A model generated the notes under the pieces. That model saw nothing but the letters and a program-made list of their open reading frames with translations, ran no database searches and was not told where the DNA came from. This document shows positions 1,028 to 2,664 of a stretch of 28,771 bases of DNA, piece by piece; within the stretch, counting starts at the first letter, position 1, and the number at the start of each line of letters is the position of its first letter. Source of the DNA: Chloroflexota bacterium (lineage in GTDB: Bacteria > Chloroflexota > Dehalococcoidia > Lucifugimonadales > UBA826); the NCBI GenBank assembly GCA_002718095.1, contig PBDP01000005.1, positions 335,759-364,529 on the forward strand, written 5' to 3'. A program made the position numbers and the translations under genes.

Positions 1028-2086
1028 TTATAAAGATACTTCAATACTAACTGAAGAAGATTCTTTATCCCTTACATTCCCTATGACACTTGCCTCATAA
1101 ATATTATTTTTATTTATTGATTTTAATAATTCGGGGAGTTTTGTTGTATCGACGGATATGATTAATCCTCCAGAGGTTTGGGCGTCTGCCATTAATATCT
1201 TTTGATAATCATCTACATTACTGTCAAAAAGTATATTTTTAGATATAGAGTTCAAATTTTTAAATGTTCCTCCGGGGACCATTTCGTTTTTGATTAGAGG
1301 TATCACTCCTTCTAATATAGGTATACGACTGTAATTTATGGATGCTATTTTATTGGACGCATCCATCATTTCTTTTAAGTGACCAAGTAATCCAAATCCA
1401 GTTACGTCTGTACATGAGTTTACTCCTATGTCTACCATAGATTCTGATGCATATCTATTTAAGGTTCTCATAGTGTCAATTGCTAATTCAAGCACTGAAT
1501 CTTTAACCTTTCCATGTTTTCCTGCAGTTGTTATTATACCTGTCCCAATTGGCTTTGTTAGAACTAATGTATCGTTTGTCTTGGAATTATTGTTTGTGAT
1601 TTGTGAACCAGGATTTATAATTCCTGTTACACTAAGGCCGTATTTTGGTTCTTGATCGACAACTGTATGCCCTCCAGCAATAGCTATACTTGCCTCTTTT
1701 GATTTTGATGCTCCTCCCTTAAGTATTTGAGTTAGAATATTTAAATCTAAATCGTCTGGGAATCCAACTATATTTAGAGCAGTTATTGGCTTTGCCCCCA
1801 TAGCATAAATATCAGATAGTGAATTAGCGGCGGCTATTTCTCCAAAGGTAAATGGGTCATCAACGATAGGTGGGAAAAAGTCTACTGTGTTTACCACTGC
1901 TATATCATCTGAAATTTTATAAACAGAGGCATCGTCACTTGTTGAATTTCCAACAAGTAACTTTTTGTCTAGCATATTGGGTATTTGAAGCAAAACTTGC
2001 CCCAGTTCGCTAGAACTTAATTTTGATGCTCAACCAGCGCAAGCTGCTAGCTCTGTTAACCTGACTTCTTGGTCATGAGTATGCAT
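1028..2086 (-). CDS. selD: Selenophosphate synthetase SelD, probable selenoprotein with in-frame TGA at codon 19
   Basis: Makes selenophosphate from selenide and ATP, the selenium donor for selenocysteine and 2-selenouridine tRNA. From ATG 2086 the frame gives 352 residues, the usual family length, if TGA 2032-2030 is read as selenocysteine. The N-terminus then contains C16-A-G-U19-A-S-K22-L, which matches the SelD catalytic motif CxGCxxKL. The position of U19 is that of the essential Cys/Sec, three before the essential Lys. The rest is typical of the family: GNSTSDDASVY, TVDFFPPIVDDP, AAANSLSDIYAMG, and the C-terminal GGLI region. A conventional ORF caller would begin at TTG 1993 and lose the active site. 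A GGGA 8 bases before ATG 2086 is a weak ribosome binding site. An in-frame stop further upstream at 2116-2114 limits the start. The gene sits between the EVE gene and argS. Confidence 0.9.
1991..2032 (-). promoter_or_regulatory. Candidate bacterial SECIS hairpin after the selD UGA
   Basis: Directly after the TGA at 2032-2030 the minus strand can fold a 5-bp stem AGTTC (2017-2013) with GAACT (2008-2004) around the loop TAGC. The loop lies 18-21 nucleotides after the UGA. An outer 5-bp pairing, CAAAA (2025-2021) with TTTTG (1995-1991), may extend it. Bacterial SECIS elements lie within the coding sequence just 3' of the UGA, with an apical loop roughly 16-37 nucleotides downstream. The position fits; the loop sequence is not diagnostic. 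SelB binding cannot be judged from sequence alone. Confidence 0.5.
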
Positions 2087-2185: not shown

Positions 2186-2647
2186 TCACGATGTTATTTT
2201 TACTGAAGGATATTTTTTTATTACATCTTCAAGTAATTTGAAATCTTTTTGAGGTAGTAAGTGCAAGGTGTCCCAAAAAGCTAGATGCCAATCTTCAGGG
2301 ATCCATTTTTTTACATATTCCAATCTGAATCCTATTTTAGATGCGTTTAAATAATTATCTTCCTTTAGAATATGGTTTGGCTTTAGAGATACTCTGTATT
2401 TGAAATCGTCAATATTATCTTTGGGCTCCCATACAGGAGATAAATCTTCAAAACATTCTTCAGTGATAGTTGCTGTTGCTGTCCATGATTTTATTGTTCG
2501 ATTGTAAAAAATAACTCTGTCATTTTTTTTCATTCTTTGAGCTCGTCTTTTATATCTTGTTCCTACCCCAAACATACTGTAATCTAATTTTCTAGTTATT
2601 TCAGAATTTTGTTTGCTTTCCACAAACATCCAATAATTTATTCCCAT
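2186..2647 (-). CDS. EVE-domain (PUA-like) protein, possible modified-base binding
   Basis: A 153-residue protein that appears to consist of a single EVE domain. EVE domains are PUA-like folds that bind modified nucleic-acid bases. The visible signs are the N-terminal YWMFVES strand, the basic segment RYKRRAQRMKKNDRVIFYN typical of the family, and the aromatic WHLAFWDTLHLLP segment near the C-terminus. The open frame extends four codons further to GTG 2659. I choose ATG 2647 because GGAGAGAGC lies immediately upstream at 2657-2649 and would be inside the longer version. It lies 99 bases upstream of selD on the same strand. No partner nuclease or restriction domain is fused or adjacent, so its target (DNA, tRNA or rRNA modification) is unknown. 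Family assignment is fairly secure; function is inferred. Confidence 0.8.
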   Translation of the reverse strand: MGINYWMFVESKQNSEITRKLDYSMFGVGTRYKRRAQRMKKNDRVIFYNRTIKSWTATATITEECFEDLSPVWEPKDNIDDFKYRVSLKPNHILKEDNYLNASKIGFRLEYVKKWIPEDWHLAFWDTLHLLPQKDFKLLEDVIKKYPSVKITS

Positions 2648-2651
2648 TGCT

Positions 2652-2657
2652 CTCTCC
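2652..2657 (-). promoter_or_regulatory. Ribosome binding site deciding the EVE gene start
   Basis: The minus strand reads GGAGAG followed by AGCA and then ATG 2647. This strong Shine-Dalgarno match favours ATG 2647 over the upstream in-frame GTG 2659. Confidence 0.7.
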
Positions 2658-2664
2658 ACATAGT

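Follow-up and report, generated by a model that had tools for sequence, protein, structure and literature searches.

Selenophosphate synthetase with a predicted UGA-encoded selenocysteine at its active site in the Dehalococcoidia order Lucifugimonadales

The stretch of DNA analyzed here (28,771 nucleotides; hereafter the window) is part of contig C5 in a Chloroflexota genome of 1.44 Mb and 94.6% completeness. Its minus strand carries a selD gene whose frame, between ATG 2086 and the stop codon at 1028, encodes 352 residues when a TGA at residue 19 is read through (Table 1). This is the single in-frame TGA between the ATG and the selD stop; the next one precedes the ATG and hence lies outside the gene. 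The read-through product is MHTHDQEVRLTELAACAG-U-ASKLSSSELGQVLLQIPN..., with the motif LAACAG-U-ASKL around the TGA and C16 and K22 on either side of U19. Under translation table 11, the frame instead yields a product of 321 residues with TTG as its mechanical start. A sequence-only reading of the window had proposed the extension through the TGA to ATG 2086, the active-site motif formed by C16, the TGA and K22, and the loss of the active site in a standard gene call; frame reading and ORF calling agree with it on all three. Visual inspection ahead of ATG 2086 showed no clear ribosome-binding site. The gene directly upstream (window 2186-2659), on the minus strand like selD, encodes a small EVE-domain protein (PF01878).

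Table 1. Features of the selD locus (window positions) and further TGA-containing genes of the genome (contig positions).
Feature	Position	Strand	Basis
selD, selenide water dikinase (selenophosphate synthetase), 352 aa, Sec19	1028..2086	minus	TIGR00476 (369 bits); 3u0o, 2yye/2zod
ATG, start of full-length SelD	2084..2086	minus	Starts of relatives at or a few codons from here
UGA read as selenocysteine (predicted), residue 19	2030..2032	minus	Frame reading; codon in relatives
321-aa ORF of the standard reading, without active-site Sec and Lys	1028..1993	minus	ORF calling
bSECIS-like stem-loop CTGGGGCAA-gtt-TTGCTTCAA	1985..2005	minus	Compensatory changes; pairing above the synonymous-codon null in UGA-type but not Cys-type genes
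Peroxiredoxin, TGGU (FTGGU)	C1:25429-25806		One in-frame TGA at redox position
Peroxiredoxin-like protein, probably lipoprotein, UGIC (FUGIC)	C5:233712-234077		One in-frame TGA
UGSC-family protein (DUGSC)	C2:113803-114240		One in-frame TGA; ~1 kb from tRNA-Sec gene
551-residue protein, N-terminal UGSC-like domain, UGTC (DUGTC)	C3:44243-44671 plus downstream		One in-frame TGA

Assignment of the product to SelD is supported by profiles and by solved structures. The NCBIfam equivalog TIGR00476 (selD) covers residues 9-315 with a score well above its curated cut-off of 125 bits, NF002098 matches residues 5-350, and both AIRS domains are detected with Pfam. The best solved relatives are themselves SelDs (3u0o and 2yye/2zod). 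Alignment pairs their active-site Cys with residue 19 and their Lys with residue 22, placing U19, and K22 three residues on, in the N-terminal loop of known SelD chains. The structures 2yye, 2zod and 2zau are those of Aquifex aeolicus SelD, whose catalytic Sec is Sec13. The Aquifex protein is of the Sec type and resembles the window SelD in its fold family, in its UGA-encoded Sec and in the position of this residue three before the catalytic Lys, but it lacks the second Cys that the window SelD holds at -3 (CxxU; SSGCAAK in the Aquifex chain). Cys-type SelDs, such as those of E. coli and of Bacteroidales and Anaerolineae loci, share the enzyme and the G-C-x-x-K motif; unlike the window gene, they have a TGT or TGC codon, usually a Cys at +2 and a Gly at -3, and no stem-loop at the corresponding place. 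The nearest named record is the SelD of SAR202 cluster bacterium OSU_BB09 (locus L046), which is 60% identical, has TGA at the codon within CAGUASK, and differs from the window SelD in sequence divergence only; the two likely come from the same clade. No description of selenocysteine in SAR202 was found by title or abstract among open-licence papers.

The TGA is a shared feature of the order. SelD was found near full length in 39 of 40 genomes (the window's own included), each time with exactly one in-frame TGA, and a Cys-type SelD in none of the 40. The remaining genome (G031) contains only remote paralogues of SelD and is also without SelB above the cut-off, which 36 of the 40 genomes exceed; of the other three genomes without a SelB above it, two are of low completeness (78% and 55%). 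The third (G035, 91% complete) has a UGA-type SelD but likewise no SelB above the cut-off, perhaps owing to an assembly gap. Among 103 SelD hits that include distant homologs and count the window twice (once as locus L016), the active-site codon is TGA in 60, TGT in 28 and TGC in 15; Ser, Thr and Gly, which the search pattern allowed at this position, occur in none of them. An even draw of 151 genomes of the phylum gave 123 with SelD, mostly with one TGA and in a minority without. Near relatives keep TGA at the codon and more distant SelDs hold TGA, TGT or TGC. Since the TGA is kept through the order and among wider relatives, the codon is old and selected.

The second Cys of the motif is a small distinguishing feature of this marine clade. 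It stands at -3 in all 28 readable SelDs of the order, none of which has a Cys at +2, while Cys-type SelDs mostly show the reverse (Cys at +2, not -3, in 40 of 44). Across the SelD loci examined (L016-L125), the second Cys is found at -3, at +2 or at neither position, and in no locus at both. In an ocean survey, CxxU accounted for only ~5.6% of single-domain Sec-containing SelDs (PMC2398784). The Cys at -3 might replace the +2 Cys in this clade and form a selenenylsulfide with Sec19, acting either as a redox switch or as a site where selenium is handed over, though we regard this as rather unlikely.

Downstream of the codon, a potential nine-position stem is common to the UGA-type genes of the order, its three-base loop beginning 33 nt past the UGA. 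The window's copy, CTGGGGCAA-gtt-TTGCTTCAA, pairs at eight of nine positions and has a loop opening with G; including two G-U pairs, it is weaker than most. In an alignment of 29 sequences (28 distinct), 87.3% of cells are paired, six of the nine pairs vary on both sides, and the covariation score was reached by none of 500 shuffles; sliding the partner strand by 1-3 columns lowers pairing to 18-43%. Because the region is coding, pairing was also compared with a null in which codons were swapped for synonymous ones from the same gene. It averaged 7.86 of nine positions in the order's UGA genes (null 5.62 ± 0.21; z 10.9) and 7.17 in UGA genes from elsewhere (null 5.79 ± 0.17; z 8.0), with z 13.2 for all UGA genes, whereas the hairpin is absent at this position from Cys-type SelD genes (3.91 against 3.71 ± 0.14; z 1.5). 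The loop offset of 36 was the best of those scanned, which gives these z-scores a mild selection effect; the Cys-type genes, together with the 35 UGA genes from elsewhere, provide the controls for it. The loop opens with G in 62 of 64 UGA genes, a valine codon there making G likely in any case. When the window segment is folded alone, minimum energy favors two small hairpins. The conserved element is the downstream of the two; the upstream hairpin, AGTTC-tagc-GAACT, was rejected as such, not being kept in relatives. Bacterial SECIS (bSECIS) elements have a published spacing of 16-37 nt after the UGA. In its 33-nt spacing, GTT loop and covariation, the selD hairpin conforms to expectation for a bacterial SECIS. 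The bSECIS of Sec-containing SelD has already been modeled (PMC4561486).

The genome encodes the machinery for selenocysteine that the sequence-only reading had expected to find outside the window. A tRNA-Sec was detected by covariance model (69.5 bits against a cut-off of 47) with anticodon tca by ARAGORN, and both SelB (314.6 bits; curated cut-off 242.25) and SelA (541.9 bits; curated cut-off 267.9) are present, selA lying on the same contig ~8.4 kb past the end of the window. No second SelD of comparable score occurs in the genome. Selenouridine synthase (TIGR03167) was not found at the threshold used, leaving Sec as the sole selenium use found there.

Four further genes, from a search of some selenoprotein families that gives a partial list, carry one TGA at a redox position: two peroxiredoxin-like and two of the UGSC family (Table 1). 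Prx (TxxU), Prx-like (UxxC) and UGSC proteins are entries of the ocean survey table, with which the motifs agree (PMC2398784). Additional selenoproteins had been anticipated, and the four genes bear this out; formate dehydrogenase alpha does not, two molybdopterin-domain (formate dehydrogenase-like) genes being free of in-frame TGA over the region matched. The SelW-like (Rdx) and AhpD-like (CMD) genes checked also have no internal TGA. Within C2:113803-115318, which holds the UGSC and tRNA-Sec genes, the UGSC gene is next to what by eye appears to be a thioredoxin gene. In the 551-residue UGTC protein, ~370 residues follow the UGSC domain in one frame with no Pfam or NCBIfam match, and it is possibly an uncharacterized two-domain selenoprotein.

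Other readings of the TGA were rejected on the evidence of relatives, machinery and hairpin. A sequencing or assembly error for TGC or TGT, which would make the SelD a Cys-type enzyme, might be suspected given that the window comes from a single genome assembly. The order's SelD-bearing genomes are, however, separate assemblies that all repeat the one TGA, the active-site codon was read directly as TGA in 28 loci plus the window, and the window gene has the hairpin that characterizes UGA genes, making such an error exceedingly improbable. A true stop, leaving either a broken gene or a SelD begun downstream without its active site, accords with mechanical ORF calling, which returns just that 321-residue product. 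The conserved codons just upstream of the TGA across the order and the covarying stem-loop speak against it, as does the lack of a second comparable SelD, since the Sec machinery would then be without a donor enzyme; a true stop is very unlikely. Nor is the extension a product of chance, as the residues flanking the TGA are kept in all relatives examined, where unrelated upstream sequence had been named as grounds for doubt.

An in-frame TGA could also arise if UGA were generally a codon for an ordinary amino acid (Trp or Gly) in this organism. Against this, the tRNA with anticodon tca is a tRNA-Sec by covariance model, SelA and SelB are encoded, none of the window's other long genes has an internal TGA with coding sequence on both sides, and Trp or Gly would displace the catalytic residue; general reassignment is scarcely credible.

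The window gene is almost certainly a normal selenophosphate synthetase with selenocysteine as its catalytic nucleophile, its UGA recoded via the hairpin. As in other bacterial selenoproteins, the UGA stands where homologs hold Cys or UGA, in a genome with tRNA-Sec, SelA and SelB. SelB carrying Sec-tRNA-Sec would bind the hairpin downstream of codon 19 and insert Sec; SelD would then make selenophosphate from selenide and ATP, using Sec19 and Lys22 in a mobile N-terminal loop, and SelA would use the selenophosphate to form Sec-tRNA-Sec. Sec-containing SelD, as the sequence-only reading had noted, is well known from other prokaryotes: among prokaryotic selenoprotein families it ranks second in size (PMC13188914), and in the ocean survey it was one of the two most widespread selenoproteins (PMC2398784). 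The window gene is therefore a further instance of a described family and leaves the understanding of selenocysteine use unchanged. Its value lies in restoring the active site to a gene that plain ORF calling cuts short there, and in the indication that UGA is decoded as selenocysteine in the SelD of nearly the whole order.
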